A model generated the notes under the pieces. It saw nothing but the letters and a program-made list of their open reading frames with translations. It made no database searches and was not told where the DNA came from. A stretch of DNA of 64,000 bases from Trichodelitschia bisporula (taxonomy: Eukaryota; Ascomycota; Dothideomycetes; Phaeotrichales; Phaeotrichaceae). Position numbers and translations under genes: made by a program. Location of the stretch: NCBI GenBank assembly GCA_010356995.1, contig ML996700.1, positions 566,999 to 630,998 of the forward strand, given 5' to 3'. This document shows, one piece after another, positions 1-48,266 of the stretch; position 1 is the first letter of the stretch, and each line of letters starts with the position of its first letter.

Positions 1-1623
1 AGGGGATATAAGGAGGGGAGGGGATAAGGGGAGGGGGACGAACCGGCTGAGCTCAACTTCCGCACCGCCACCTTCTCCATCTTTAAACACTCCGGCAACG
101 CAGCATACCAATCCCTCAACCGTAACTGAATCGGCTTCGCCCGCTCCAGCACCCACCGCCCGCCCTCCCTCGCGCGGGCACGCCACTCCTCCTCCGCGCG
201 CAGGGTGTAAAACTCGCTCAACACCACAGCGAGTATCTCCGTCAACCGTATCATCTCAGAGAACAACACGCGCCCCTTCTCCACCTCCGCACTCCCCTCC
301 TCATCATCCTCGTCCGCCGCGCTCTCCGGAAAGTCAGACGCGGCCACGGGCTTGACGAGCCAGTCCGCGGGCGTAATGTGCGAAGGGCGGCCATGCACCA
401 GCGCACCCCATTTGTCCTGCATGAACAGCGCCCACGCAAGCCGTTTCCGCAACCCCTTCTCCCACGCCGGAATCCGCCACCGGGAGCAGTCCAAATGCAG
501 TCCCAAGTCCTGCCCTAGCCCGACCAACTTCGTCGTCAACGCCCACTCATCCCCCTCCGGCCGCTGGAGCAACAATAGCCCCGCCTGAATCGTGCTCAGT
601 TTCGGCCTAGCAACGACATACCCCATCGTCCTAAGCGCAACCCTTTCCAAAGCGCGGACATCCGGTTTTGGGCGAGCGGCCAGGGCAGCGCTGTACGCCC
701 ACCAGTTCAGCGCGAGGATGTACACGGCGGCCAGCAGCGGCGGCGCAAACTCCCTGTGACTGCGCGCGTATTTCTCCAAGAAAACCCTCTTGTGCAAGAT
801 CGGAAAACTGGGGTGTACGATCCGGAAATACAACCTGACGAGCGCAGGCCCATGACCCCCGACCAAGCGCTCCACGGCATCCGCATCCCCCGCCTCGTCG
901 CCCCGCCTCAGCGTCCCGGTGTCAGGGAGAAGGACAAAAGCCGCCGCGCCACTGACCCGCCGCAGCGAAGCCGCATGCAGCGAGGCCGTCCCGTCGGGGG
1001 ACAGCGGCAACTCATCCCCCCGCGTAGAAAGCTGCCCCACCAGCGCGCCCTCAAACTCCGAACTCCCGCCCACAAACCTGCTATGTCGATGATTCTGCAA
1101 CCCCAGCGTGCGCTTCAACAAACTCGGCCCCTTGAGCGTCGCATAATCCGCCGGCACCTCCCTCTCCTCAACCGGCTCCGGACTCCCCCCTACCGCCTGG
1201 GCGCCCGACGCATCCTCCGTCGACGGCAGCGGGGCAGACAGAGGCGTGGACAGTTTACGGCGCTTTTGCCGCGGAAGCGGGTTCTCGTCGAAGCTGCACA
1301 CCTGCCGGTGAAACCGACACAGCACGCACGCGGGGTCGTTGTCGCTGAATTCGCAGCGCGATTTGCGCTTGCGGCATGCGTCGCAGGGGCGGCGGGGTTT
1401 GGTCTTCTGCAAGGAAGGGGGGCCCGTCGGCACGGCAGCAGTCGGGAGCGCGGAACCGGGCGCGGGGGCCGCGGGGGGAAGACCGCTGGAATCCTATAGC
1501 TAACGTCAGAAACACTCGGGAAGGGGAAGGGAGCGGGGGAGAGGGGCAACCCACGCTGTCCTCAGTCAAGACAGAGCTCATGCCCACGATGCTCAGCGAC
1601 AAGGCCGGACCCTCGTCGATCAT
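1..1623 (-). CDS. Zn2Cys6 transcription factor, Dal81-like (3' end outside window)
   Basis: This is a fungal zinc-cluster transcription factor. Two exons fit: 1555-1623 and 1493 down to the window edge, joined in phase 0 by a 61-bp intron with a CTGAC branch site and a TAG acceptor. Residues C60, C63, C70, C79, C82 and C89 form the binuclear zinc cluster (CDACRKRKSRC, then CVLCRFHRQVC). From about residue 230 a fungal_trans middle region is visible (YFRIVHPSFPILHK, then WALFMQDKWGALVHGRPSHI). I checked that this frame has no stop codon from 1493 to 1. The CxLCxFHxQxC linker and the HGRPSH segment resemble the Dal81/UGA35 group, which in yeast activates allantoin, urea and GABA catabolic genes. 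Its position beside a ureide permease and a ureide-hydrolase gene supports a nitrogen-catabolism role. Zinc cluster: seen. Dal81 group: from family knowledge. Target genes: inferred. An alternative start is ATG at 1581. Confidence 0.85.
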
Positions 1624-2153: not shown

Positions 2154-3934
2154 TCAGACAATTTCCTTCTCCACCGTCACAGCCGGGTCCTTGAGATCGA
2201 CCTCCTGGCCCTCCGAGCTCGGGGTCGTGATCTCGCCCTTCTGCGGCGGGTACACGGCCTCGTCGATGAGGCTGACGGTCTGCGGGAAGAAGTGGTTGAT
2301 GGCGATGTAGGTCACGACCGTGGTGACGAAGCCGTAGATCCAGGCGAAAGCGTAGAGCTTCCACGCGCCGCCTACGTCCAGGTCGTTGCTGATCGACTTC
2401 GCGAACCCGGGCATCAGCGGCGCGACGCCGACGCCGAAGGCGGCCCAGGCGCGCCAGTTCACGCCGTGGTTGTACCAGTAAATGCCGCGGTCAGTGTACA
2501 GCTCGTGCAGGTTGAGCTTGCGCTTCTTGATCTGTGGCGCATTAGTGCGGCTGGAATGACGTGGAGGGGGAAACGTACGATGTAGTAGTCCGCAACGATG
2601 CACCCAGCCATGGGGCCCATGAGGCACGAGTAGCCCGACAGGAAGGCGAGCAGACCCGCGGCGTTCTTGATGATATTCCACGGGGTAACCACGACGCAAA
2701 AGAGCGAGATGAACAACGTGCCGCGGAAGATGTTGATGTACTTGGGCGCCAGACCCGTGACATCGTTGGAGAACGGGTACGACCCAGCAGCCACCTGGTT
2801 GCCAATCGTAGCCAGCATGAAGCTCAGCGAGACGAAGAACTTGGCGGCGCGGGAGTCGAACTTGGCAATCACGGCCGGCATGTACCACTGGAAGGAGCCC
2901 CAGAGGTAGCTGTGGGCGCTGGTGACGAAGATGGGCGTCAGGGCGCCGAGCGTGCCGATGATGGGCAGCGCGAGGAACTGGTGCCCCCCGGCGAGGCGGT
3001 TCTTGCTGAAGCGCCCGAAATCAGGCATGTTGACCGCCATGGAGGAGAAGAGCCCGATGATCACGTTGAGCCCGGTCAGTGCCGAGTAGGCGGTGTTCAT
3101 GTACGTCGACGTGATCTTCATGTGGCCGGTGACGAGCGGGCCGCCGCCCTTGGTGACAATCACGGCCCAAAGGAAGAGCGCAAAAAAGGTCGGCGGCACG
3201 ACGACCGCCTTGACCCAGAACAGGATGCGCAGCTTCTCAATGGGCATGAGACACAGGATCGTCTGCAGGATCCAGTACAGCATGAAGGTGAGCAGTTCGG
3301 CCGACGTAATGCCCGCGTTGTCGGGCAGGTGGTTCGGGAAGTGGATGAAGCTAGGCCAGATGGCCTCGATCATGCGCTGGAGGAAGTTGCCTGCCTGCAC
3401 GCCTGTGGACCATTAGCCTCACCCTTTACAAGATCGAAGCCAAAGCACTTACACAAAATCGCCGTCCACATCAGCGCAACGAAGGCACGGATGCAAATCG
3501 CGGGAAACGACCCGTACATGCCAAACGTACTCCGCACCACGACGGGAAAGGGGATGGCGTAGGTCGCGCCGATCTTGCCCGTCGCCGTGATGACGAAGGA
3601 GCAGATGAGGAAGCCGAAGAACACGATGGGGATGGTCTCACGCGCCGTGAAGCCCAGCGACATGACCGTCGACACGGTGCTGGCCAGCGGCGGCGCCAAC
3701 ATGTCCGAGCACCAGTAGGCCCAGTAGTCGACACCGCCCCAAGTGCGCTTCTCTGGCGGGATGGGGTCGAGATCTGGTCCGTTAGCATCGCGGCCTGCTC
3801 TCCCTAGAGTCAGAGTCCATACCTGGGTTCGACCATCGCGGGTTGTCGGCATACATGCCCACCTTAAAGGGGACATGGAGATGCATCTGCGGGCCAATCT
3901 TGGCCTTGAGGCGACGAGGCGAGAGGAACGACAT
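2154..3934 (-). CDS. NCS1 family permease (uracil/allantoin/ureide type)
   Basis: This is a plasma-membrane nucleobase-cation-symport-1 transporter of 544 residues. Four exons fit: 3823-3934, 3453-3773, 2579-3402 and 2154-2531, all with canonical donors and CAG acceptors, and all phases agree. The N-terminal signature is PDLDPIPPEKRTWGGVDYWA, near the start of the first membrane span. It is followed by about 12 hydrophobic segments, including the NMPDFGRF segment in the middle and a YYI segment just before the last intron. The layout and length match Fur4/Dal4/Fui1-type fungal permeases. The substrate cannot be read from sequence: uracil, uridine, allantoin or a related ureide such as biuret are possible. 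It lies head-to-head with the biuret/allophanate hydrolase fusion at 5608 and next to a Dal81-like regulator, which favours a ureide. The start was chosen at 3934 because the reading frame only becomes NCS1-like from there. Confidence 0.9.
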
Positions 3935-5607: not shown

Positions 5608-7890
5608 ATGGCGACCTCACAGCTCCCCTCGCTCCTCAGCATCGATGCGAAGCCGTACGCCTTTGCCTTTCCGCCGCAGCATACCGCGCTACTCGTCATC
5701 GATATGCAGCGCGATTTCCTGCTGGCAGGCGGATTCGGCGCAATCCAGGGCGGCAACCTGGAAGCCGTGCAAGCGTCCATCGCGCCGACGAAGAAGCTGC
5801 TTGAGGTGTGCCGGCGCGCCGGGTTGACGGTGTTCCACACCCGCGAGGGCCACAAGCCCGATATGTCTGACTGTCCCTCGTCGAAGCTAGTCCGCCAGGC
5901 GGAGGCACCGGAGAACACGCAGCACACGCTGGTTATCGGGGATAAGGGACCGATGGGCCGGCTGCTGGTGCGCGGTGAGTACGGACACGATATTGTGGAT
6001 GAGTTGGCGCCGCTGCCGGGAGAGGTGGTCATCGATAAGCCTGGGAAGGGGTCGTTCTGGAATACAACGATCCTGCATAAGCTTAAGGCTCGCGCGATTA
6101 CGCATCTGATAGTTGCGGGCGTGACGACTGAGTGCTGCTTTGCCACGACTATTCGCGAGGCTAATGACCGCGGGTTTGAGTGCTGTGAGTTTTTGCGTGT
6201 GCTCAGAGGGGGTGGGTGTTAATGGTAGCAGGCGGCATCGAGGAGGCGACCGCGGGGTACAATGCCGAGTTCAAGTGCTCGAGCCTGGAGATGCTGTACT
6301 GGTCGCAAGGGCTTTTCGGCTTCGTCTCGTCACTTCAGCCGCTCGTTGACACCCTCGAGCCATATACCACCGCTCCCACGTCGCTCACCTCCCCCCCAAT
6401 CACCCCACCGGCCTGGGACGGCAACGTGACCATCCCCAGCCTACAAGCCGCCTACCGGGCCGGCCTCTCCCCCGTCACCGTCGCAGAAGGCGTGCTCAAA
6501 TACATCGAGCAGTACGAAACTGAAAACCCCGGCGTGTGGATCCACCGCGTGCCCAAGGACGTGGTTCTCGAGGCCGCCAAAGCGCTCGCCGCGAAGTACC
6601 CGGATAAATCCGCCCTGCCCCCGCTCTTCGGCGTCCCGTTCAACATCAAAGACAGCCTTGACGTCGCCGGCCTGCCAACGACGACCGCATGCCCGCCCCT
6701 GACGCACATCGCCTCAACCAGCTCCCCCGTGTACGACAGCGTAATCGCCCAAGGCGCCCTCTTCATCGGCAAAACGAACCTGGACCAACTCGCCACGGGC
6801 CTAACCGGCTGCCGGTCGCCCTACGGGCGGCCGCACTCTGTCTTCCACAACGACTACATTTCCGGCGGCTCGAGCAGCGGGAACTGCGTCAGCGTCGGCG
6901 CCTCACTCGTCTCCTTCTCCATCGCCACCGACACAGCGGGGAGCGGCCGCGTGCCCTCCGGCTTCAACGGCGTGGTCGGGTACAAGCCGACGCGCGGCCT
7001 GCTCAGCACCGTCGGACTCGTCCCCGCCTGCCTATCGCTCGACTGCATCGCCATCATCTCGCGCACCGTCGCCGACGCCCGGACCGTCTGGCAAGTCGCT
7101 GAAGCCTACGACCCGCGCGACCGCTACGCCAAGAACCCACTCGGCTTCGAGCGGCACGTCAACGCCACCGGGCCAGGAGCGCGGAAATTCACCTTCGGGA
7201 TCCCCCCCCCAGAGGCGCTCTCCGTGTGCGCCCCCGTCTACCGCGCCATGTTCCACAAAGCGATCGCGCGACTCCAGGCAATGGGCGGCGAGCTGAGGCC
7301 TATAGACTGGAGTCCCTTTGAGAAGGCAGGGAGGCTGTTGTACGACGGGACGTTTGTGAGCGAGCGCCTTGCGAGTTTGCCGGATGATTGGCTGGAGAAG
7401 AATCGCGGGCACTTGCACCCTGTGATTCGCGAGCTGTTCGAGGCGGTGGAGGCGAGGGGGAGCACGGCGGTGCAGGCGTACCGCGATTTACAGGCTAAGG
7501 CGCTGTATACGCGGCAGGCGGAGCTGGTGCTTGGGTACGGGGACGGGGGCGTGGATGTTGTGGTCGTGCCTACGGCGCCGACGCATTGGACTGTTGAGGA
7601 GGTGTTGGAGGATCCGATTAGGAAGAATAGTGCGCTGGGGGTGAGTTTTTTCTGATGTGTGTTACGGTGGGGGACTGGCTAACGAGTGGCAGGAGTTCAC
7701 GCATTTTGGAAACGTGCTCGATTTGTGCTGCGTTGCGGTGCCGGCGGGGGCGTATGCGGAGGGGGAGCTTAGGCCGGGGGCTGGGGACGCGCCGCTGCCG
7801 TTTAGCGTTACGTTCCTTGGGGGGAGTCGGATGGATGCTGAGACGTTGGAGATTGCGAGGAGGTTTGAGCAGGGCCTTTTGAATAGGTGA
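5608..7890 (+). CDS. biuret hydrolase-like / allophanate hydrolase fusion enzyme
   Basis: The 727-residue protein has exons 5608-6184, 6232-7640 and 7693-7890. Residues about 25-215 are an isochorismatase-fold cysteine hydrolase with apparent triad D32 (LLVIDMQRDF), K144 (VIDKPGKGSFW) and C177 (GVTTECCFATT), plus TREGHKPDMSDCP. This is the pattern of biuret-hydrolase and related ureide-hydrolysing members. Residues about 240-727 are an amidase-signature domain very like allophanate hydrolase (AtzF, Dur1 half of urea amidolyase). It shows GVPFNIKDSLDVAGLPTTTA with K332, GGSSSG with S406 and DTAGSGR with S430, and the 74- and 24-residue spacings fit a Lys-Ser-Ser triad. Predicted reactions are biuret to allophanate plus ammonia, then allophanate to two ammonia and two CO2. 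The C-terminal domain of bacterial and yeast allophanate hydrolases appears absent. The start at 5608 follows CACA before ATG. Fusion and motifs: seen. Biuret as substrate: inferred; another ureide is possible. Confidence 0.88.
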
Positions 7891-8844: not shown

Positions 8845-8894
<50 letters not shown>

Positions 8895-14062: not shown

Positions 14063-17000
14063 CTAAGCGGAGTCCTCTCCACGAAGCGGCTGCAAACTGT
14101 AAACACCGTCCTTGACCTGGTAAAAGTAGCCCTTCCTGTCAGCAATAATCGTACGACGCACATCCTCAAGCTCGCGCTCGATAGCCTCGTTCCAATCCGC
14201 AACAAACTTCTCATGCTCCTTATCGTACTTATCGGGGTGCTCGAGGACCATGTGCACGAGAAGCGCACCGCCCGTCTGGAAAACCTCACGTTCCTTCTGA
14301 GCCTTCTTGTCGTTCACATCCTCAGCACCATCATTGTCCTCAGCACCGTGCTCGTCGCAATAGGAGCACGACGCGGGGACAAAGGGCTCGGGGGGGGGAA
14401 TCTCCTCGTCCAAGTCTAAGTTGGCGAAGAGGGCGGCGAGTTTGGCCTCTGCGACTTTGGCTTCAGCCGCGAAAGGCGCCATGGCCGCGCTGGCCTCAGC
14501 GACTGCCTTGTCAAAGATCTCGGACGCCGGCTTGGGAGGGGGCCCGATGTAGCTGAAGTCGCACAGCTCCTCGAGATCGGGGACCGAGTCGACCTCCTCC
14601 ACTGGCGGGGGCGGAGTCCAATCGGCTGGGACGTAGCCCTGCTTCTGCCACGCGAGCATCATCCGAATGTACTCATCGTGGTCCATGTCCAGGAGCTGCT
14701 GTTTAGTAACGTTCAACGCCCACTCCTGGAAGGGGTTGAGCGAGGGATCCGGCTTGATGATTCTAGGCGGGAGCTCGTAGAAACCGGGGCCACCGTCGGT
14801 GCGCACCTTGAGGTAGTGGTTGCCAACCTTGTGGTATTCATCGCGGCTCACTAGAACTACCTTGTTGTGGGTTTTGCCGACCTTGTGGTGCCCGGCAGCC
14901 TCGAGGGTCGCTGCTGAGCGCTCTTGCTGGTTGTCAGCGGCCACTTCGCTGTCAATATCGCTGTGAGTCTCACTGCGATGAGCTGTACCAGTGCCGAGGT
15001 TTAAACCCATGGCGTAGCCGTCCAGGATTTGCAGAAGGTCGGTGTTGCTCGTGAGAACGTCTGCGTTCTCGGCTTCAGCAGCAGTAAGAAAGCTCTCGAT
15101 GAAGTCTTCGGTGTTGCTTGAGGAGACTTTTGCGTTCTTGACTTCGGCAGCAGTAAAGTCCTCAAGGTCGTCAATCACGGAAGCTTTGGCCTTCTTTGCC
15201 ATCAGCTTGCGCGAGTTCCTCTGCTGGGCCGAAAGCGGCTTCCCCTCACGGGAAAGAGTCTCGTCATTGACGGAAGGCACGTCCTCAGGGTCGCTTTCAA
15301 CCTCGACGCTGGCAGAAGAAGCCTCGGCTTCCGCCATCCGAGCCGCCTTCCTTGCCTTCTTTTTCTCCTTCAGATTGCGCCATTTCTTCTCTTTGCGCGT
15401 GAGCACCTTCCCCTCGCTGGGGACGTTGTCGTCATGGAGGGGAGGCACGTCCTCGGGGTCGCTACCGGCTTTGAAGTTGTCCAAAGAAGCCTCGACTTCC
15501 GCCTTCAGAGCCGCCTCTTTCTCCTCCAGATTGCGCCGTTCTTTCTGCATGCTCGAAAGCGACTTCCCCTCGCTGGAGACGTTGTCATCATGGACGGAAG
15601 ACACGTCCTCAGGCTCGCTATCAGATATGAAGCCGCCATGAATGCGCGGGCGAGGAGCCACACGAACGGGCTTGCCGTTATTGCGCGGAGTGTACTCATC
15701 AGTGCTCCACCCATCGTCATCATCATGGACCGCATTCATCTCTGTAGGCTTGCCCATCGAACCTGCGCTCGAGGGGGGACGGGCAACGGCCACTTTAGCA
15801 GAGTCGCTGACAGTGCTCCACTCATCATCACCAGATTCCGCCTTGATCTCTTCCAGCTCATCCATCGCACCTGCAGTCGCCGGGGCTAGGACAAAAGCCT
15901 CTCCAGCAAAGTCGGGGCCGGAGAGAAACTCCAACTCAGCTTTGGTAGCGGGGGAAAGATACGCCTGGGCACGAGACTCCATCGCACCTGCGGTCAAGGG
16001 GCCTTGCGCAACGGTCTCTTCAGCAAAGTCGGCGCCGATAAGAAGCTCCAAGTCACGCGTGGTAGCAGAGGAAACACGCGCCTGGGCACGAGCCTCGCTC
16101 AACACAATGGTGGTGTCGATGAGCTCAAAAGTGCCACCCATGCCGTCATCAGCATCGGAGTTGCCAGTCTCGACTTGCTCATCGGCAGGAACGACGAAGT
16201 AAGCGCTACCCATGTCGGAACTAACGTCTTCAGCTGCGATACCGGAAGCAACGACTTCAGCTGCGATGCCGGAAGCAACGACTTCAGCTGCGATGAAGGA
16301 ACCAACGTCTTCAGTCGCGATGTCGAAAAGAACGTCTTCAAGCGCGATGTCGAAAGCAACGTCTTCAGCCGCGATATCTGACTGCGTGCCGAAACCAAGG
16401 TCTTCAGGCGCGACACCAGACCGCGTGCCGGAATAAATCTCTTCAGCCGCGATATTGAACTGCCTGTCGCTTGTAAGTTCGATAAGCTCGCCGATGTCCT
16501 CGATGGGGGATTCCGAAGTTCTAGCCGACTTAACTGGATTAACCGGCAGACCGGGCAGGAGGAATTCCGCGGAATCCTCAGAAGCGATGCTCATAAGATC
16601 CCCCAAGTTCGGGGAAGGAATCAAAGCAGGAGTCTTATAAGGTTTCTGGTTCACGGAAGCCTTGAATGCCTCGGTGTCCAGCTCAGACAAGTCTAAGATC
16701 GTGTTCTTGGAAAGCTCGGCGCTGTCAGGCCGCTTCGGCTGTTCGAGAAGAGGCTCCGGTGTCAGATCGACAAGAGGCTGTGTCGTCGAATCGAAAAGAG
16801 GCTGCGTCGGCTGTTCGAGAAGAGGCTGCGATGTCAGATCGACAAGAGGCTGCGTCGTCGAATGGACGAGAGACTGCGTCACATCGACAAGAGGCTCCTT
16901 TGAGACACTGACAGGGGCCTGCAGATCATGTGCCAGGTCGCGCTTCGGAATATTCGCCGGTGCCTTCTTTGCCGGAGATGTCGCGCTCTGCTTTGTCGCC

Positions 17001-18652
17001 GGATGCTGCGCCGCGATCTTTGTCTGAGACTTTTCCAGAGGCTTCTTTGCTGGAAACTCCGGGGGCTTGATTGCCGGAAGCTTCGGCGCGTGCTTTGACA
17101 GAAGAAGGCTCGAGACATGCTTTTTCGGCGAAGCTTTGTCGGCAGCCTTCGCATGTTTGCTTACCGGAAGCTTCGGAGTCGTGATTGCAACAAGCTTCGG
17201 CGCGTGCTTTGACGCATAAAGGCCCGTAGCAGGCTTTTTCGGCGAAGCTCTGTCGGCAGCCTTCGCAGGCTTCACAGCCGGGCTCTTTGCGGGATATTCC
17301 GTCAGATCCATCTTCGTCGAGTTCTGTCCCGCATCTTGCAGCTTGCGTGCCGCAATCTCGATCTGCTTAGCATGCATACCGCCGCACGTACAGTCGATCT
17401 CGTGCTTAGTGGCATCGTGCAGGGCCTTGCTGCGAAAGAAGGGGAACCGCCGGCCTTTGCACTTCAGACAGAAGAGATGCTCCTCCTTGGAGGCATGACG
17501 GCTGAGGTCTTCAATGAAGGAGAACGTCATCCAGCAGACCGTGCACTGGAAGCCCGGATGAAACGTGCACAAGGCCTTCGTTACATCGACTTTGTACGAT
17601 TGACTCTGCAGCCTACGCACAGCAATAGCCGTCTCTTTGGCATGATTGCCGCCGCACTGGCAGTCAATCTCGTGCTTGGAAGCATTGTGATCAGCAAGGC
17701 CGATGAAGAAGTCGAACTTCCTGTTGTTGCACTGCTTGCAGTGGAGATGCTTCTCCTTGGTGACATGCTCATCGAGGTCTTCAATGTAGTCGTAGAACAC
17801 GCCGCAGACGCTGCAGCGGAAGCCCGAGTGCTCGATGCCCGCTTCCATCAAGGCTTGGTAGGACTTCGGCAAGTTGAACTTGTCCGGTTGGGGCTGAAGC
17901 TTGCGCGCAGCGACATCGATCTCCTTGGCATGAATGCCTTCGCACTCGCAGTCGGAATGGTGTTTTGCGGCGTCGTGTGCGGCCTTGCTGGCGAAGAAGG
18001 GGAACGGCCGATTGTTGCACTGCTCGCAGTAGAGATGCTCTTCCGCGGTGGCATGCTCGGCGAGATCTTCGATGCAGTGGAATCCGCTCTGGCAGACGGT
18101 GCACTCGAAGCTATCATGGGGCCGCATCGCCTGGTGTGCTGTTTTCCGTTTAGCAAGGTTCTTTTTACGCTGCTGCCAATCCTTCAACCAGGTCTCCTCA
18201 GTGCGCCAAGGGAGCCCATTCAAGCCGTGAGCTTTGATGACATGCTGCTCGAGCTCGGCCTCAGAGCCAAAATACGTCGTTTCGCATACGAGATCCCAGT
18301 CCGGGCGCTGCCAGAAGCAGATGATGCACTTGCCGTCACAATATGCTTCGCACTCCTTGAAGCCCGCCTTGTGCACCCACTGCAGGTGGAGCATGAGGTG
18401 AGAGCGCGTGTGATAGAGGGCGTCGCACAACCCGCAGACCCAGATCTTCTTGAGCTTCGGATGTTTCTCGTCGACGTGTGCGTCCAGTTCTTCCTCCGTC
18501 TTGAAACGCGTGCTGCCGCGGCAGGGCTCGCACTCGAATAGACCGTGCATACACATCTGGTGCATGACCCGTTGGCTCTCGGTGCCGTAGTTTTTGCCGC
18601 AGCATTCGGCGCGCGGGTCGACGCTCTTCCAGATGAAGAACTCCTGGGACAT
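14063..18652 (-). CDS. 1,529-residue multi-zinc-finger protein with novel tandem Cys/His modules
   Basis: I do not recognise this as a named family. Translated from the ATG at 18652 it is intronless. The N-terminal ~170 residues have Cys/His pairs of C2H2 type (for example CGLCDALYHTRSHLMLHLQ). Residues about 175-440 hold three tandem copies of a ~90-residue module. Each has a C2H2 finger ending in IEDLxxHxxxEEHL, a second Cys pair (CxxCNNR or CxxCKGR) followed by an FxFF block and HDAxKH-type His, and a closing DCxCxGxHAK. About 440-640 is Lys/Pro-rich with repeated KKPL/KSPA and QPLVDLT units. About 750-815 carries nonapeptide-like repeats (IAAEVVASG). About 1005-1140 has SDPEDV...EGK repeats with basic coiled-coil-like stretches. 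The C-terminus has another finger (CSYCDEHG...HMVLEH). A nuclear nucleic-acid-binding role is plausible but inferred. The same frame stays open upstream to 19018; residues before 18652 are not zinc-finger-like, and a spliced leader intron (about 18721-18783) is likely. Confidence 0.75.
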   Translation of the reverse strand: MSQEFFIWKSVDPRAECCGKNYGTESQRVMHQMCMHGLFECEPCRGSTRFKTEEELDAHVDEKHPKLKKIWVCGLCDALYHTRSHLMLHLQWVHKAGFKECEAYCDGKCIICFWQRPDWDLVCETTYFGSEAELEQHVIKAHGLNGLPWRTEETWLKDWQQRKKNLAKRKTAHQAMRPHDSFECTVCQSGFHCIEDLAEHATAEEHLYCEQCNNRPFPFFASKAAHDAAKHHSDCECEGIHAKEIDVAARKLQPQPDKFNLPKSYQALMEAGIEHSGFRCSVCGVFYDYIEDLDEHVTKEKHLHCKQCNNRKFDFFIGLADHNASKHEIDCQCGGNHAKETAIAVRRLQSQSYKVDVTKALCTFHPGFQCTVCWMTFSFIEDLSRHASKEEHLFCLKCKGRRFPFFRSKALHDATKHEIDCTCGGMHAKQIEIAARKLQDAGQNSTKMDLTEYPAKSPAVKPAKAADRASPKKPATGLYASKHAPKLVAITTPKLPVSKHAKAADKASPKKHVSSLLLSKHAPKLPAIKPPEFPAKKPLEKSQTKIAAQHPATKQSATSPAKKAPANIPKRDLAHDLQAPVSVSKEPLVDVTQSLVHSTTQPLVDLTSQPLLEQPTQPLFDSTTQPLVDLTPEPLLEQPKRPDSAELSKNTILDLSELDTEAFKASVNQKPYKTPALIPSPNLGDLMSIASEDSAEFLLPGLPVNPVKSARTSESPIEDIGELIELTSDRQFNIAAEEIYSGTRSGVAPEDLGFGTQSDIAAEDVAFDIALEDVLFDIATEDVGSFIAAEVVASGIAAEVVASGIAAEDVSSDMGSAYFVVPADEQVETGNSDADDGMGGTFELIDTTIVLSEARAQARVSSATTRDLELLIGADFAEETVAQGPLTAGAMESRAQAYLSPATKAELEFLSGPDFAGEAFVLAPATAGAMDELEEIKAESGDDEWSTVSDSAKVAVARPPSSAGSMGKPTEMNAVHDDDDGWSTDEYTPRNNGKPVRVAPRPRIHGGFISDSEPEDVSSVHDDNVSSEGKSLSSMQKERRNLEEKEAALKAEVEASLDNFKAGSDPEDVPPLHDDNVPSEGKVLTRKEKKWRNLKEKKKARKAARMAEAEASSASVEVESDPEDVPSVNDETLSREGKPLSAQQRNSRKLMAKKAKASVIDDLEDFTAAEVKNAKVSSSNTEDFIESFLTAAEAENADVLTSNTDLLQILDGYAMGLNLGTGTAHRSETHSDIDSEVAADNQQERSAATLEAAGHHKVGKTHNKVVLVSRDEYHKVGNHYLKVRTDGGPGFYELPPRIIKPDPSLNPFQEWALNVTKQQLLDMDHDEYIRMMLAWQKQGYVPADWTPPPPVEEVDSVPDLEELCDFSYIGPPPKPASEIFDKAVAEASAAMAPFAAEAKVAEAKLAALFANLDLDEEIPPPEPFVPASCSYCDEHGAEDNDGAEDVNDKKAQKEREVFQTGGALLVHMVLEHPDKYDKEHEKFVADWNEAIERELEDVRRTIIADRKGYFYQVKDGVYSLQPLRGEDSA

Positions 18653-18840
18653 GAGGACCGGTCGCGCGTTGGTGCGGAGCTCAAAGGATGGCGCTTGCGG
18701 TTGCAGGTGGGAATCTGAAACCGAGGAAATCAGTATTGTTTTCAAGCAAGGCGATACAAATCGCAAACGCTTGAAGCAACTTACCTGCAAACTTGCAAGA
18801 CAATGGGAAATAAGGACTGGTAAACAGTGAGACTTTGTTG

Positions 18841-19045
18841 ACAAAGGGTAGGGAACGGTAGAAAGACGACACCAAGTCGCGAGGAGGGGATACCAACGAT
18901 GAGCAGTTGTCTCTGCAAGAAAACAATCAGAGTTGAGGAAGAGGGGTGCGGTAGAAAAACACGACACCAGGTCGCGAGGAATGGGGGAATTGACAACAAT
19001 GCGCAGATGTCTCTGCAAGAAAGCAATTGGAGTTGAGGAAGAGGG
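18841..19045 (-). repeat. two tandem copies of a 100-bp unit upstream of the zinc-finger gene
   Basis: CTCTGCAAGAAA recurs at 18911 and 19011, and GTTGAGGAAGAGGG at 18932 and 19032, a period of exactly 100 bp, with CGACACCA(A/G)GTCGCGAGGA shared as well. Read on the minus strand each copy has a pyrimidine-rich stretch ending CTTGCAG, the form of a 3' splice site. It lies in the presumed 5' leader. Confidence 0.8.

Positions 19046-30065: not shown

Positions 30066-30112
<47 letters not shown>
30031..30112 (+). repeat. G-rich tract with a 45-base poly(G) run
   Basis: Starting four bases after the Pam16 stop codon, the strand is almost pure G: several runs interrupted by single bases, then 45 consecutive G at 30068-30112. 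It lies in the Pam16 3' region. It could form G-quadruplexes; the exact length may be an assembly estimate. Confidence 0.9.
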
Positions 30113-43154: not shown

Positions 43155-45810
43155 AACTTCAGAAGCCATCAATGGGACTACCCGGCCAGTACTTGGAATC
43201 AACGGAGCGTCTATCCAGCGCCACATGTGGTCGCAACCTGGACGGAAAGCCGTGGCGCAGCTTCCATAGGATGTGGAAACACGCAGCAGATGCGTGTTTG
43301 CACCGCCTTCGTCCCACGCAGGCGGATACCGCTCCTCAGTTCCTTCCGCATTTGCCAGATCGCCCCCCTTAAATCCCTCCGCCCCCGTCTCTCTTCCCCT
43401 CACCACCTGGAAAGCCCACCTCCGCACCTCCACCCTCAATCTCCGTCACGTCCCCTTCATCCTCATCCCCCCACCCACCACCTCCCACAATGCCTCTCCC
43501 CTGCCCTCTTTGTTGGGTGTCCTTCCTTCAGCCCACCTCTTGCGTGTAGCACCTGCGCGACAAGCACGGCCGACCGAACGCCTGCCTTTTCTGTGGGGAC
43601 GACTTCAGCAGCTCGATCGGGCGGATGCAGCATGTAACAGCCAAACACGGGGCGTCAAATACTAAGCCGAGCACCACAGATGGCAAAACGACCACCAGCG
43701 CGGGCGGGAAAAAGACGGAGAAGCAGCGCTACCGCTGCGAGAAATGTGGTAAGGACTTCGGCAGCTCGATCGCGCGGGACCAGCATGTGGTGACCGCGCA
43801 CGCTAGATCGGACACTAATAACGGCAAACCGAACCATTAGCACTGGTGGGAAAAAGACAGAGAAGCAGTGCTACCGGTGCAAGAACTGTGGGAGCGTCTT
43901 CGGCAACTCGATCGCGCTGGACCAGCATTTAAGGACCAAGCACGGTAAATCGAACACTACAAACGGCAAACCGGCCACCAGCACGGGCGGGAAAAAGACA
44001 GATATACAGCGCTACCGCCGCGAGAAATGCTGGAAGGACTTCGACAGCTCGGGCGCACGGGACCAGCATGCGATGACCACGCACGGTAAATTGGACACTA
44101 CAAACGGCAAGCAAACCACCAGCACGGGCGGCAAAAAGATAGAAAAACAGTGCTACCACTGCGAGGAATGCGGGAAGGACTTCGGCACCTCGAACGTGCG
44201 GAAGCAGCATGTGAGGACCAAGCGCGGTAGATCAGACACCAAACCGGACACTACGAATGGTAAACCGACCACCAGCACGGACGGGAAAAAGATAGAGAAA
44301 GAGAGCTACTGCTGCGAGGGGTGCGGGATGTCCTTCGGCTTGTTTAGGGCGCTCGACCAGCATGAGCTGGTCATGAGATATGGCGAGGAGAGTGAGGAGT
44401 CTGAGTTCGACGGACTCGGCTGGCCGACGAAGTGCCACATCTGTGGAGAGCAATGCTACAGCACCTTCACACTCCAGGAGCACATATGGGTTAAGCACGA
44501 TAAACGTGGGGGGCCGAAGTCCGATTTCGACCTGAAGTCCCGGACCGAGGAGAAGAAGCCAGCAGTCGATGGCATTGCAAAGAAAGCTTCAGATATGATC
44601 CTGTGTGGCGGCTGCGAGAAAAAACTTTCCGACTTTGCCGCCCTCAAAGATCACTGCAGGCGTGTCCATTCCCCCCTTTGGCCACCATTTATCATGTTCC
44701 CCTGTAAACGCTGCGAGAATGAATTTCCCAGCATTGAGGCCTTCCGCGATCACTGGGAAGCCAATCATAGTGCCCCCTTGGGACCTTTCCCTGGGGCGGG
44801 AGGCGAATCCCATCATATACCTTCGACTCCGACACCACCCGTGGGAGAAAACGCCGGTTCTGGCTCGACATCCCGGACCGAGGGGAAGAAACCAGCAGTC
44901 AATCACTTTCCGGATATAGTTTGGGATACGATTCATTGTGTACCCTGCGGTGAATTTTTCCCAGCATCGAGGCCCTCAATGCTCACTGGGCAATCATCCA
45001 ACATGATATCTGGCCGCCAGAGCCGTCGGTGGAAGATGAGGACAGCGAAGCTGACTCGATGCCTGACTTGGTGACACCAACACCCTCAGAGGGCGGTGAG
45101 TCGTTGTGGGGCAACGATGCTGGAAAGACGCAGGAGGATGGAAAGGAAGAAATCAGCTTCCACTGCACTTCGGCTTTTCTACCTTCTAGCTGGGACGCGG
45201 ACGCACATTGTCCCGAATGTCAGAAGGTATTTTCTGATCCGGAGGGTATGAAGCAGCCCCGGGAACATGTACACGGCACTGCGTCCAAATGTCCGACTTG
45301 TGGTAAACGGTTGAGGACGGCGGAGGGAAAGGAGCAGCATATACGGCAGTTTCACATGCCAACAACCCACGTGCGTTCCGAATGTCACGAGAAGTTTGCT
45401 CAAGCGGAGCGTATGCAGCAGCACCGGGAACAAGTATACAGCACTGCTTCGAAATGCCCGGTTTGCCAAAAATGGTTGAGGACGCCGGAGTGAAAGGAGC
45501 AGCATATGTGGCAGTTTCACAGGGCAACCTTGTAGCCGTAAGGAAGGACCGGTGCTGGATGCATGTGTTTGGAAATTCAAGTGGAATTCAAGTGCTGATG
45601 CCGATCAACTCGGCTTCGCTGCGAGGATGGGAGAACGGAATGTTGTCGTTGTGGTTCATAGGGCCTGTGGTCTTCTTCGATATCACTCTTAGCGGGATAG
45701 CCTACATATCGAGTGAAATGACAGAGAAGCGGAAGTCTAGGCTGGGTTATCAGCAAGATTAATCTCAGCTATCAAGCATCAGTATAAATTGAGCGTTCTC
45801 AGCAGTGATA
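43155..45810 (+). repeat. tandem segmental duplication, copy 1 (decayed)
   Basis: Copy 1 begins with AACTTCAGAAGCCATCAAT (43155-43173) and ends with GTTCTCAGCAGTGATA at 45810. Promoter, coding and 3' flank all have counterparts in copy 2 in the same order and orientation. Shared flank blocks include GAAACACGCAGCA before the gene and AAGATTAATCTCAGCTAT after it. Copy 1 contains the broken zinc-finger gene. Confidence 0.75.
43490..45535 (+). pseudogene. broken paralog of the 600-residue C2H2 zinc-finger gene
   Basis: The start MPLPCPLC aligns with the start of the intact gene at 46209, as do RPNACLFCGDDF and the 3' part (ECHEKFAQAERMQQHREQVY). It carries a TAG at codon 20, where the intact copy has CAG. 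The reading frame shifts within the second finger repeat (about 43830-43850) and again near 45030, and a TGA at 45491 lies 14 codons before the homologous end. Five ~140-bp units between about 43680 and 44380 each encode GKxTTSTGGKKxEKQ followed by a C2H2 finger; in the third the first Cys of the finger is lost. One stretch, 44073-45074, is still open for 333 codons and could be translated alone, so partial function is not excluded. Confidence 0.72.
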
Positions 45811-45826
45811 TCCAACAAAGCTCACC

Positions 45827-48266
45827 GAACTTCAGAAACCATCAATATTACCAGACCTACTCTTGGAGTATACAGTTCAACGCCACATGTCGCAAAAGAC
45901 GTAACGCGGCTCCCGTACTCTATGATGTAGAAACACGCAGCAAACGCGCGTTTGCACCGCGTTTGTCCCACGTAGGCGGTCATACTCCTCGTTCCTTCCA
46001 CGTGTGTCGGTTTCTTCCGCGTATACCAGTTCCTTCCGTTTGTGCCAGACCCCTCTCCACAAACCCCTCCGCCTCCGCATCTCCTCCCCGGACTACCTTA
46101 ATACCCTAACAGCCGTACCTCCACCTCCGCAACCATCCATTCGCACCTCCACCTCATAACCTCCACTACCAGCGCCTCCCTCTCCCCCCTCACCCACCAC
46201 TTTTCACAATGCCGCTCCCCTGCCCCCTTTGCCCCCAGGTGATCTTTTCTTGCCATTCCTCCTGCGCGCAGCACATGCGCGACCGCCATGATCGACCGAA
46301 TGCATGCCTCATCTGTGGAAACGACTTCGCCAGTGCGAGTGTCTGGGTCCAGCACGTGAGCACCGAACACGGAGAATTAGACAACCCGGACATCAAGACG
46401 ACCGTGGAAGTGGTGGAAGAAGAGCTCTGTCGCTGCCTTTGCGGGAAGCTTTTCGGCTCGGCTAAGGCGCTCGGCCAGCATCAGCGGTCCGAAGGACATG
46501 GCGGTGACGATGAGTGTGAACTCAACGGGATTGCGCCGCCGCCGGTGGGGTGCCCGCACTGTGGAGAGAAGTTCTCCAAATGGCTCACACATCGTACGCT
46601 TTGGACGCGGTCGGAAAGCGTGGATAAAAATTTAGACCGGAAATCCCGCACCGAGGGGAAGAAGGCAGCAGTCAAAGGGGTTGTGGAGAAAGCCTCGTTT
46701 GTGTTCCAATGTACACACTGCGACGAGAAGTTCGACCACAAGGCCCTCCATGAGCACTGGGAGGACATCATCGTGGCTGTGCCGACGCAGTTTCCCATAA
46801 GCAAATGTCCAAACTGCAATAAAGAGTTTTCCGACTTTGAAACCTTTGTTGTTCAGTGGCTGGCCATCTACAAAAGAACCCTGGCGCCATGGTCCGGGGT
46901 AGGAGGCGAAGACAGCCGTGTGCCTTCGATGCCATCGCCACCCTTGGGAGGAAGCGACGATTTCGACTCGAAATCCCGGACAGACGGGACTAAGGCTCAT
47001 GAGGCGGTTGAAAAATCTTCAGCATCGCAAAGGATCCTGTGTATAGGCTGCGACGTAAGGTTTTCGGACTTCGCGGCCTTCGCTCATCACTGGGAGGCCA
47101 TCCACAAGGATCCTTCAACGCCATTCCCATGTACACGCTGCGACATCGAGTTGCCTGACATGCAGAACCTTGGTGATCACTGGAAGACCTTCCACAGTTA
47201 CTTGATCGTATGTATGCGCTGCGACAAAGATTTTTCTGGCTTCGGGACCTATGATGATCACTGGAAGGTCGCCCACAATGACCCGATCCTCTGTACACGC
47301 TGCGACAAAGAGATTCCCGACATTCTGGCTCACTTGGATGCCATGCATGGCGGTATCGCGGCGATGTTGTCCTGGATGAGAAACGAAGAAGGCCGTGCGC
47401 CTTCGGACGTGTCGCAGACTGTGGAAGAAAACACCGATTCCGGCTCGAAGGAGGGGAAGAAGACTGCTGAAGCGGTGGAAAAATCTTATCTTGCGTTCCA
47501 GCTCCAATGTACAGGCTGCGATAAAAAGTTTCCCGACTTCTGTAACATCTTTGAGCACTGGGACGCCATGCATATGGGCCCTTCGGCGCCATTGCCCTGG
47601 GCTAACATTGATAACAACAACGCCCACTCGAAGCCTGGCTCCCAGGCCGCAACGTCGCCAGAGGATGATATGCAGTGGCGGGACAAGTACAAGATACTGG
47701 AAGAGGAGGCGAAGGAGAGGAAGGAGGGAGAAGATGCAAAGACACCAGAGGAGGAGGATGAGGTTGTCTTCCAGCGCCCGACGCTTATCCAACGCCCTGC
47801 TGTCGTCAAACCTCCCGTCGTGGTCGAGCGGACCGCTACCAACTGTCGCACGTGTCCCGAATGTCATAAATGGTTTGCTCAACCGGAGCATATGAAGCAG
47901 CATCGGAGAGATGCGCATACTTCTACGAAATGCCCGCGTTGCAGGAAAATTTTGAAGACGGTGGAGGGGAAGGAACAGCATATGAGGGACTTTCACCGGG
48001 CACCCGCTTGATTGTAATGGTAAGGGGTTGATAAATGTAGATGTGCTTGGGGCTTTAAGTAGCGATGTCGGTTAACTCAGCTTTGTTACGAGGCTAGGAG
48101 ACGGAAATGTTGTCGCTGTGGTCCATAGAGCTTGCAGTCTTGTTCGATCTCAGTCCTAGCTTGATGTCCTACATGTCGAGTGATACGGGACCGAGAAGCG
48201 GGATACCGGCAAGATTAATCTCAGCTATAAAGCATCAGTACAGATTGTGTGTTCTCAGCAGTGATA
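45827..48266 (+). repeat. tandem segmental duplication, copy 2 (intact gene)
   Basis: Copy 2 begins GAACTTCAGAAACCATCAAT (45827-45846), 16 bp after the end of copy 1, and ends GTTCTCAGCAGTGATA at 48266. The shared end sequence at both unit ends and the direct orientation indicate a tandem duplication that included promoter and 3' flank. Confidence 0.75.
46209..48011 (+). CDS. 600-residue multi-C2H2 zinc-finger protein
   Basis: The gene is intronless. About 13 finger-like units span the protein, for example CPLCPQVIFSCHSSCAQHMR, CLICGNDFASASVWVQHVST, CTHCDEKFDHKALHEHWEDI, CIGCDVRFSDFAAFAHHWEA, CMRCDKDFSGFGTYDDHWKV, and at the C-terminus CPECHKWFAQPEHMKQHRRD and CPRCRKILKTVEGKEQHMRD. A central family shares the unusual form C-x2-C-(D/N)-x2-(F/L/I)-xD-(F)...DHW-x3-H. 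Spacers with SRTEGKKAAVKG-like sequence recur between fingers. I recognise no named orthologue. DNA or RNA binding is inferred. It sits in the downstream half of a tandem duplication whose upstream copy is broken. The start is supported by CACA before ATG and by conservation with the paralog. Confidence 0.8.
   Translation: MPLPCPLCPQVIFSCHSSCAQHMRDRHDRPNACLICGNDFASASVWVQHVSTEHGELDNPDIKTTVEVVEEELCRCLCGKLFGSAKALGQHQRSEGHGGDDECELNGIAPPPVGCPHCGEKFSKWLTHRTLWTRSESVDKNLDRKSRTEGKKAAVKGVVEKASFVFQCTHCDEKFDHKALHEHWEDIIVAVPTQFPISKCPNCNKEFSDFETFVVQWLAIYKRTLAPWSGVGGEDSRVPSMPSPPLGGSDDFDSKSRTDGTKAHEAVEKSSASQRILCIGCDVRFSDFAAFAHHWEAIHKDPSTPFPCTRCDIELPDMQNLGDHWKTFHSYLIVCMRCDKDFSGFGTYDDHWKVAHNDPILCTRCDKEIPDILAHLDAMHGGIAAMLSWMRNEEGRAPSDVSQTVEENTDSGSKEGKKTAEAVEKSYLAFQLQCTGCDKKFPDFCNIFEHWDAMHMGPSAPLPWANIDNNNAHSKPGSQAATSPEDDMQWRDKYKILEEEAKERKEGEDAKTPEEEDEVVFQRPTLIQRPAVVKPPVVVERTATNCRTCPECHKWFAQPEHMKQHRRDAHTSTKCPRCRKILKTVEGKEQHMRDFHRAPA

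Follow-up and report, generated by a model that had tools for sequence, protein, structure and literature searches.

A single gene of Trichodelitschia bisporula encodes, in a row, an isochorismatase-like cysteine hydrolase (domain 1) and an amidase of the allophanate hydrolase type (domain 2), and its sequence identifies the product as one protein and a true fusion. It is best read as a known kind of ureide hydrolase in a new arrangement, predicted to be bifunctional. The gene lies in the window, by which we mean the whole stretch of 64,000 nucleotides that was analysed (contig ML996700.1, positions 566,999 to 630,998), and is made up as follows:

5608..7890, plus strand: whole gene from ATG to stop, 727 aa fusion (gene model, domains)
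5608..6184, plus strand: exon 1, residues 1-192, the larger part of the isochorismatase-like domain, with D32, K144 and C177
6185..6231, plus strand: intron 1, 47 bp, GT-AG, within domain 1
6232..7640, plus strand: exon 2, residues 193-662, with the end of domain 1 and its substrate-reading loop, the linker and the bulk of the amidase
6303..6308, plus strand: codons for S217-Q218 (from the alignment, codons checked)
7641..7692, plus strand: intron 2, 52 bp, GT-AG
7693..7890, plus strand: exon 3, residues 663-727 and stop, last part of the amidase, with no AH_C after it

The coding sequence of 2184 nt translates into 727 aa without an internal stop and ends with TGA (7888-7890). Its GC content is 0.80 at third, 0.63 at first and 0.49 at second codon positions. 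Splice sites were inferred from sequence and homology: 13 in-frame GT-AG options exist for intron 1, and only 6185-6231 preserves the length of the family motif. At an E-value of 0.001, Pfam detected Isochorismatase (PF00857, residues 26-215, 123 bits) and Amidase (PF01425, residues 280-714, 232 bits) in the chain and no third family, urea carboxylase included. Because intron 1 lies inside domain 1, the end of this domain (193-236), the linker and the amidase up to residue 662 share one open exon (frame 6189-7655), which also encodes K332, S406, S430, Y563 and R571. No in-frame ATG is present between codons 213 and 532, and therefore the amidase has no ATG of its own. With the junction inside one exon and no ATG in this interval, a reading as two separate genes is rejected. 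A sequence-only reading of this DNA had proposed one chain with two domains, which is borne out by exon continuity and the absence of an internal ATG, and had listed D32, K144, C177, K332, S406 and S430 as intact; all six are found at exactly these numbers. It had also expected a structure prediction to display both active sites, and AlphaFold was used on two separate pieces of the protein. The exon 1 piece (residues 1-192) gave a mean pLDDT of 89, its top-ranked PDB matches being TrtA, with BiuH close behind at an equal TM-score, a measure that does not separate the two. Residues 257-662 gave a pLDDT of 82.6, and AtzF and the Granulibacter allophanate hydrolase were the best matches. Both modelled pieces look like intact folds, the one TrtA/BiuH-like, the other allophanate hydrolase-like.

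By sequence, domain 1 is closer to bacterial TrtA than to BiuH. Its best match is the solved structure of Herbaspirillum TrtA (227.7 bits, 53% identity), compared to 181.8 bits and 45% identity for the BiuH structure and 95 bits for the RutB structure. With the NCBIfam model of BiuH (NF050097) it reaches 225.3 bits, below the cut-off of 370, which a TrtA-clade protein from Herbaspirillum also misses (261.6 bits); with the RutB model TIGR03614 it reaches 99.1 bits, for a cut-off of 378. A nicotinamidase or RutB identity is excluded by such far lower scores, and the clustering with nicotinamidases or ureidoacrylate amidohydrolases, which the earlier reading had named as the outcome that would speak against it, did not occur. 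In a quick tree of 129 rows, from which both hydrolases of locus L004 were omitted, domain 1 falls within the TrtA clade, and in a careful tree of 40 rows a branch with 100/99.9 support divides TrtA from BiuH, with domain 1 on the former side. Grouping it with 14 BiuHs costs 42.8 log units and is rejected (AU p 0.000626). Its end branch is long (1.45 in the 40-row tree). Holding 24 TrtA rows together without domain 1 is not rejected (p 0.23), so that nested and sister positions both fit, and forcing domain 1 with the actinobacterial hydrolases is not rejected either (p 0.23); in the free tree it joins a mostly proteobacterial group (96/87). Thus, of the description of the N-terminal domain as biuret-hydrolase-like, the Asp-Lys-Cys triad stands, but the domain sits on the TrtA side (AU p 0.0006 against BiuH).

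To read the substrate-binding residues, domain 1 was aligned with 83 TrtA-clade and 42 BiuH-clade rows, its own row having been removed from the TrtA clade before counting; the lone Ser at the catalytic Cys among the 42 BiuH-clade rows is the chain of the C169S mutant in the PDB. Domain 1 keeps the triad and TrtA positions F29, E72, K132 and T158, and its residues D32, F37, E80, K147 and T173 are kept ureide contacts of TrtA by comparison with PMC7948467. Besides Q202, six positions that discriminate TrtA from BiuH were named by Tassoulas et al. 2020 (PMC7948467). The TrtA consensus at these positions is F35, N41, A134, E160, Y187 and I205, and the BiuH consensus is Y, Y, S, D, T and V. Domain 1 has F, G, S, E, Y and L, that is, 3 of 6 residues of the TrtA form (F35, E160 and Y187 are kept, N41, A134 and I205 are changed) and 1 of 6 of the BiuH form (S149 at A134). 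The E160 and Y187 residues are each present in 79 of 83 TrtA rows, so these positions are incompletely fixed. Ser at the A134 position is found in 34 of 42 BiuH rows and 14 of 83 TrtA rows, and A134S is harmless in TrtA (PMC7948467). At the two other changed positions, G49 replaces N41, which is Asn in 83/83 TrtA rows and Tyr in 42/42 BiuH rows, and L220 replaces I205, which is Ile in 82/83 and Val in 42/42 rows, respectively.

A further change concerns the Gln position itself (Q202 in TrtA, Q215 in BiuH). All 125 rows have Gln there (83/83 in the TrtA clade, 42/42 in the BiuH clade). In domain 1 this position is occupied by S217, preceded by W216, and the Gln comes one residue on, as Q218. 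Read plainly, the alignment puts the Gln out of register; with one gap on either side Q218 would align with Q202, so that a compensating shift may have preserved the Gln. In the enzymes described, this Gln reaches in from the partner subunit to bind the substrate at its far end (PMC7948467, PMC5806882). Its position is the determinant of biuret versus triuret proposed by the authors, and N41 hydrogen-bonds it (PMC7948467). In TrtA, the N41Y and Q202E changes each leave less than 10% of the triuret activity, and Q202E increases biuret activity tenfold (PMC7948467); in BiuH, changing the Gln to Ala or Glu raises the KM more than 25-fold (PMC5806882). As judged from the alignment, domain 1 is changed at the place of substrate choice. 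The N41 and Q202 positions being altered, an unchanged triuret specificity is therefore unlikely, and biuret is not thereby proven. TrtA of Herbaspirillum sp. BH-1 (PDB 6XIX/6XJE), the closest solved relative, has the same triad, F35, E160, Y187, K132 and E72, whereas domain 1 has G49, S149, S217 with the Gln one residue on, and L220, and is fused to an amidase. BiuH of Rhizobium leguminosarum (PDB 6AZO) belongs to the same superfamily and has the same triad and Ser at the A134 position, but domain 1 falls in a separate clade, has one of the six discriminating residues and scores below the BiuH cut-off. Biuret hydrolases are reportedly also the subject of Robinson et al. 2018.

Domain 2 is, as far as sequence tells, the amidase of an allophanate hydrolase without the usual C-terminal domain. 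Its Lys-Ser-Ser set (K332, S406, S430) aligns with that of GbAH, and it scores 335 bits with AtzF and 320 bits with GbAH. A column was counted as diagnostic when its residue is shared by 95% or more of 29 allophanate hydrolases and is lacking in 12 more distant amidases. There are 17 such columns, and domain 2 matches 15 of them, R571 included; the allophanate-hydrolase type earlier assigned to the C-terminal amidase is thereby upheld. Of all 75 columns that reach this level of conservation among the 29, 64 are kept and 11 differ, including N410 and C411, which directly follow the GGSSSG loop, and F567 in place of Trp. Y563, which is invariant in alignment A3, is kept. We take Tyr299 and Arg307 to be the specificity residues of allophanate hydrolases, and the window protein aligns with a matching Tyr and Arg. 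In the amidase tree, the allophanate hydrolase side, domain 2 included, is separated by a 100/100 branch from the 12 distant amidases, which were called AtzE-like from low scores; an AtzE-type amidase is rejected by family (tree, columns), not by substrate. Both curated models score below their cut-offs (426 bits for 511 with TIGR02713, 458 for 487 with NF006043). The AH_C domain (PF21986) is absent from the fusion protein by Pfam, and was detected at 164.8 bits in the positive control, AtzF of L003. This absence had been missed in the sequence-only reading, and so had the changes in domain 1 to the Gln and Asn that read the substrate.

In allophanate hydrolase, the N and C domains perform sequential reactions (PMC5770610), the amidase domain of AtzF alone keeps amidase activity (PMC3944691), and the product of the AtzF amidase, dicarboxyammonia, is unstable and decomposes (PMC5806882). 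AtzF and GbAH (PDB 4CP8, 4GYR) have the same amidase domain, with the Lys-Ser-Ser set and the matching Tyr and Arg; unlike them, the fungal protein lacks AH_C and has an N-terminal hydrolase. The fungal DUR1,2 protein (K. lactis, PDB 5I8I) is also a fusion that feeds an allophanate hydrolase from an activity of the same chain, but its allophanate comes from urea carboxylase, not from a cysteine hydrolase, and it has the second AH domain. Its amidase is 36% identical to domain 2, and a sister relation of domain 2 to the yeast urea amidolyase lineage lowers the likelihood by 16.2 and is not rejected (p 0.14). Placing domain 2 with the actinobacterial amidases yields a likelihood 3.35 higher than that of the free tree (p 0.65).

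Relatives of the fusion were sought in other genomes. A plasmid tblastn with the whole protein gave 1518 records, 37 of which had at least 80% query coverage in one place, and five plasmid loci were examined. Among those 37 rows, Natronorubrum daqingense was the only single-piece match: at L002:5791-8034, hydrolase and amidase lie in one frame split by a single stop codon, which on sequence is a natural near-fusion. This amidase has 459 aa and no AH_C, a cytosine permease gene is nearby, and the hydrolase falls outside the TrtA and BiuH clades, with BiuH-like loop residues. In a 2025 nitrifier study, archaeal biuH adjoins an uncharacterised amidase, and some contigs encode a cytosine permease (PMC12625717). 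The operons of Agrobacterium (L001), Ideonella (L003) and Rhizobium (L004) combine ABC transporter genes with a full-length atzF and a pair of such hydrolases; in L001 and L003 the pair consists of one BiuH-type and one TrtA-type enzyme.

Genome loci were the best 80 of at least 578 confirmed. Of these 80, 37 have a BiuH-clade hydrolase and 21 an allophanate hydrolase, and in none (0/80) does a hydrolase frame run into an amidase frame. Eleven have an allophanate hydrolase without BiuH, and in 8 of the 11 it is of the short form, with no AH_C match in the locus; the 8 of 80 is not a frequency. The absence of BiuH or AH_C here refers to the fetched DNA, at most 6 kb on each side (tblastn, E 1e-6), some loci being cut by contig ends, L080 most. 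All eight loci with the short amidase belong to Actinomycetota. In 7 of the 8 genomes, as far as these are covered by their assemblies, no match exceeds the BiuH cut-off, the next-best after the TrtA-type gene scoring less than 100 bits. An AH_C frame occurs elsewhere in 7 of the 8; in 6 it is part of an open frame of 545-601 aa. Urease alpha is over cut-off in 6 of the 8 genomes; urea carboxylase has a full score in 3, and partial matches of 965-976 bits in 4 more. The short amidase of L036 passes NF006043 (514 bits) and fails TIGR02713 (480 bits). Thus the actinobacterial loci (L007, L011, L016, L026, L036, L054, L060, L080) and haloarchaeal L002 have a cysteine hydrolase and a short amidase without AH_C, as in the fungal protein, but unfused, and the bacterial TrtA-type members retain the Gln and the Asn. 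That a TrtA-type hydrolase occurs together with a short amidase where BiuH is missing supports a common two-step logic and a route from triuret to urea alike.

Two side observations were made in these loci. In L036, the hydrolase gene of the actinobacterial pair is immediately followed by one (L036:6695-8260) for a probable membrane protein of 522 aa, a candidate ureide transporter with no Pfam or NCBIfam match. AH_C-like stretches were also seen near TrtA-clade genes with no allophanate-hydrolase amidase match in the same locus (L012:8319-8690, L019:5541-5894, L034:5618-5977, L066:6750-7112, L072:6713-7078, L079:5608-5988 and L082:5579-5959); these may be the carboxybiuret decarboxylase TrtB.

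In the window, two further genes are found beside the fusion gene:

2154..3934, minus strand: NCS1-family transporter gene (nucleobase/ureide permease family), divergent, Pfam PF02133 in three pieces
3..1493, minus strand: fragment of a Zn2-Cys6 transcription factor gene, beyond the transporter and running off the window, Pfam PF04082 and PF00172

The likely ATG of the NCS1 gene is at 3934, 1.67 kb from the enzyme ATG, and TIGR00800 was found below cut-off on one piece. From this arrangement, it is plausible that transporter, transcription factor and enzyme make up a small uptake-and-breakdown cluster. Between the divergent genes, GATAAG occurs 3 times for 0.6 expected, HGATAR 4 times for 3.5, and CGG-N6-11-CCG 20 times for 7.9 (both strands counted, hence each site twice, and GC uneven); these counts are too weak as regulatory evidence. 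Elsewhere in the window, runs of 49 and 45 G are present on the plus strand, at 8845-8893, within the region of a minus-strand protein kinase gene, and at 30068-30112, and are possibly intron low-complexity sequence or an assembly artefact. Long open frames at 14063-19045 (minus strand), 43794-45074 and 46110-48011 (both plus strand) contain many Cys-Cys-His-His-like motifs by eye; the first has no Pfam match.

What would such a protein do? We tentatively favour, at somewhat less than an even chance, a bifunctional nitrogen-scavenging ureide hydrolase with biuret as its likeliest substrate. In the mechanism we infer, both sites would be active. A small linear ureide would be taken up by the divergent NCS1 transporter, domain 1 would take off its terminal amide as ammonia and leave a carboxylate-ended product, and domain 2 would then remove the other terminal amide. 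With biuret, domain 1 would produce allophanate and NH3, domain 2 would convert allophanate into dicarboxyammonia and NH3, and dicarboxyammonia would fall apart to CO2 and NH3 without AH_C. Domain 1 would be an enzyme of TrtA lineage whose Gln has moved one residue, within a loop whose conformation is believed to decide between biuret and triuret. Biuret is the ureide whose hydrolysis yields allophanate directly (PMC7948467, PMC5806882). This substrate is further favoured by the exact catalytic sets, the kept ureide contacts, the allophanate-hydrolase columns and the bacterial operons that pair both protein types. Against it, domain 1 lies on the TrtA side and has 1 of 6 residues of the BiuH consensus, BiuH also has its Gln in register (42/42), and the second reaction must finish unaided for want of AH_C. 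Biuret, already proposed in the sequence-only reading, is therefore plausible, but the label is not earned by sequence, the nearest enzyme being a triuret hydrolase.

With triuret instead, domain 1 would give carboxybiuret and NH3, and the short amidase would lead through 1,3-dicarboxyurea to urea, for urease. Carboxybiuret resembles allophanate in that the molecule ends in a carboxylate on one side and in an amide on the other, and neither BiuH nor AH_C would be needed. The position of domain 1 in the tree agrees with this route, and so do the eight actinobacterial loci, where a TrtA-clade hydrolase and a short amidase occur with no AH_C or BiuH match in the locus, where that amidase looks like a second copy beside the AH_C frames elsewhere and may have another substrate, and where most of the genomes have urease alpha. 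We take it as a serious rival, though an unlikely one for the fungal protein: N41 and the register of Q202, both fixed in 83/83 TrtA-clade relatives, are lost, the amidase keeps allophanate-hydrolase residues, and the eight short amidases bear no sequence mark of another type (3 candidate columns, of which domain 2 matches 1). Action of domain 1 on some other N-carbamoyl compound (guanylurea, formylurea, or a purine or pyrimidine ureide), with the amidase acting on its product or on allophanate, is not very likely either. The altered G49, W216, S217/Q218 and L220, the long end branch and the adjoining gene of the NCS1 family, which includes nucleobase and allantoin permeases, would all be explained, but the residues contacting the ureide core are kept, and RutB identity is excluded (99 bits for 378).

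Finally, domain 1 might be a weak or dead passenger of an amidase serving a urea carboxylase encoded elsewhere. The Gln to be supplied by the partner subunit is indeed out of register, and according to Strope et al. 2011 many Basidiomycota have urea carboxylase, among them Cryptococcus neoformans, which appears in their table without the amidase (PMC3073912). This is improbable, as the catalytic triad and the oxyanion-hole Thr are kept and the exon 1 model is of good quality. The same survey, by which basidiomycetes need not be short of a source of allophanate, bears on the premise, in the sequence-only reading, of an allophanate hydrolase without a urea carboxylase partner, which is not established (PMC3073912). 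Passing of allophanate from one site to the next, also proposed there, is not implied by fusion: for the urea amidolyase of K. lactis, the authors argue against channelling, favour diffusion of allophanate, and ascribe the benefit of being fused to a higher activity of the allophanate hydrolase (PMC5770610).

In the excerpts of the open-licence literature searched, no natural fusion of such a hydrolase with allophanate hydrolase is described; those of PMC2409186, PMC7928374, PMC10805520 and PMC10651915 contain nothing on it, and the only fusion met there was engineered, in tobacco, with a P2A peptide as the joint (PMC13155557). Some fungi have triuret genes (PMC7948467).

It is possible, if doubtful, that we are dealing with a self-contained fungal polyurea-degrading chain, which would take a linear ureide to ammonia (biuret) or urea (triuret) without separate BiuH, decarboxylase and AtzF; the actinobacterial pairs would then represent the same shortcut in an unfused form, likewise unrecognised so far. 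Triuret and biuret reach fungi as impurities of urea fertiliser. How the key Gln specialised TrtA and BiuH for near-identical ureides is still unknown according to PMC7948467, and a natural relative with its Gln displaced, its Asn partner gone and its triad intact offers a direct way to test this. The fusion suggests a shorter polyurea route in fungi, and points to an uncharacterised two-gene version of it in Actinomycetota.
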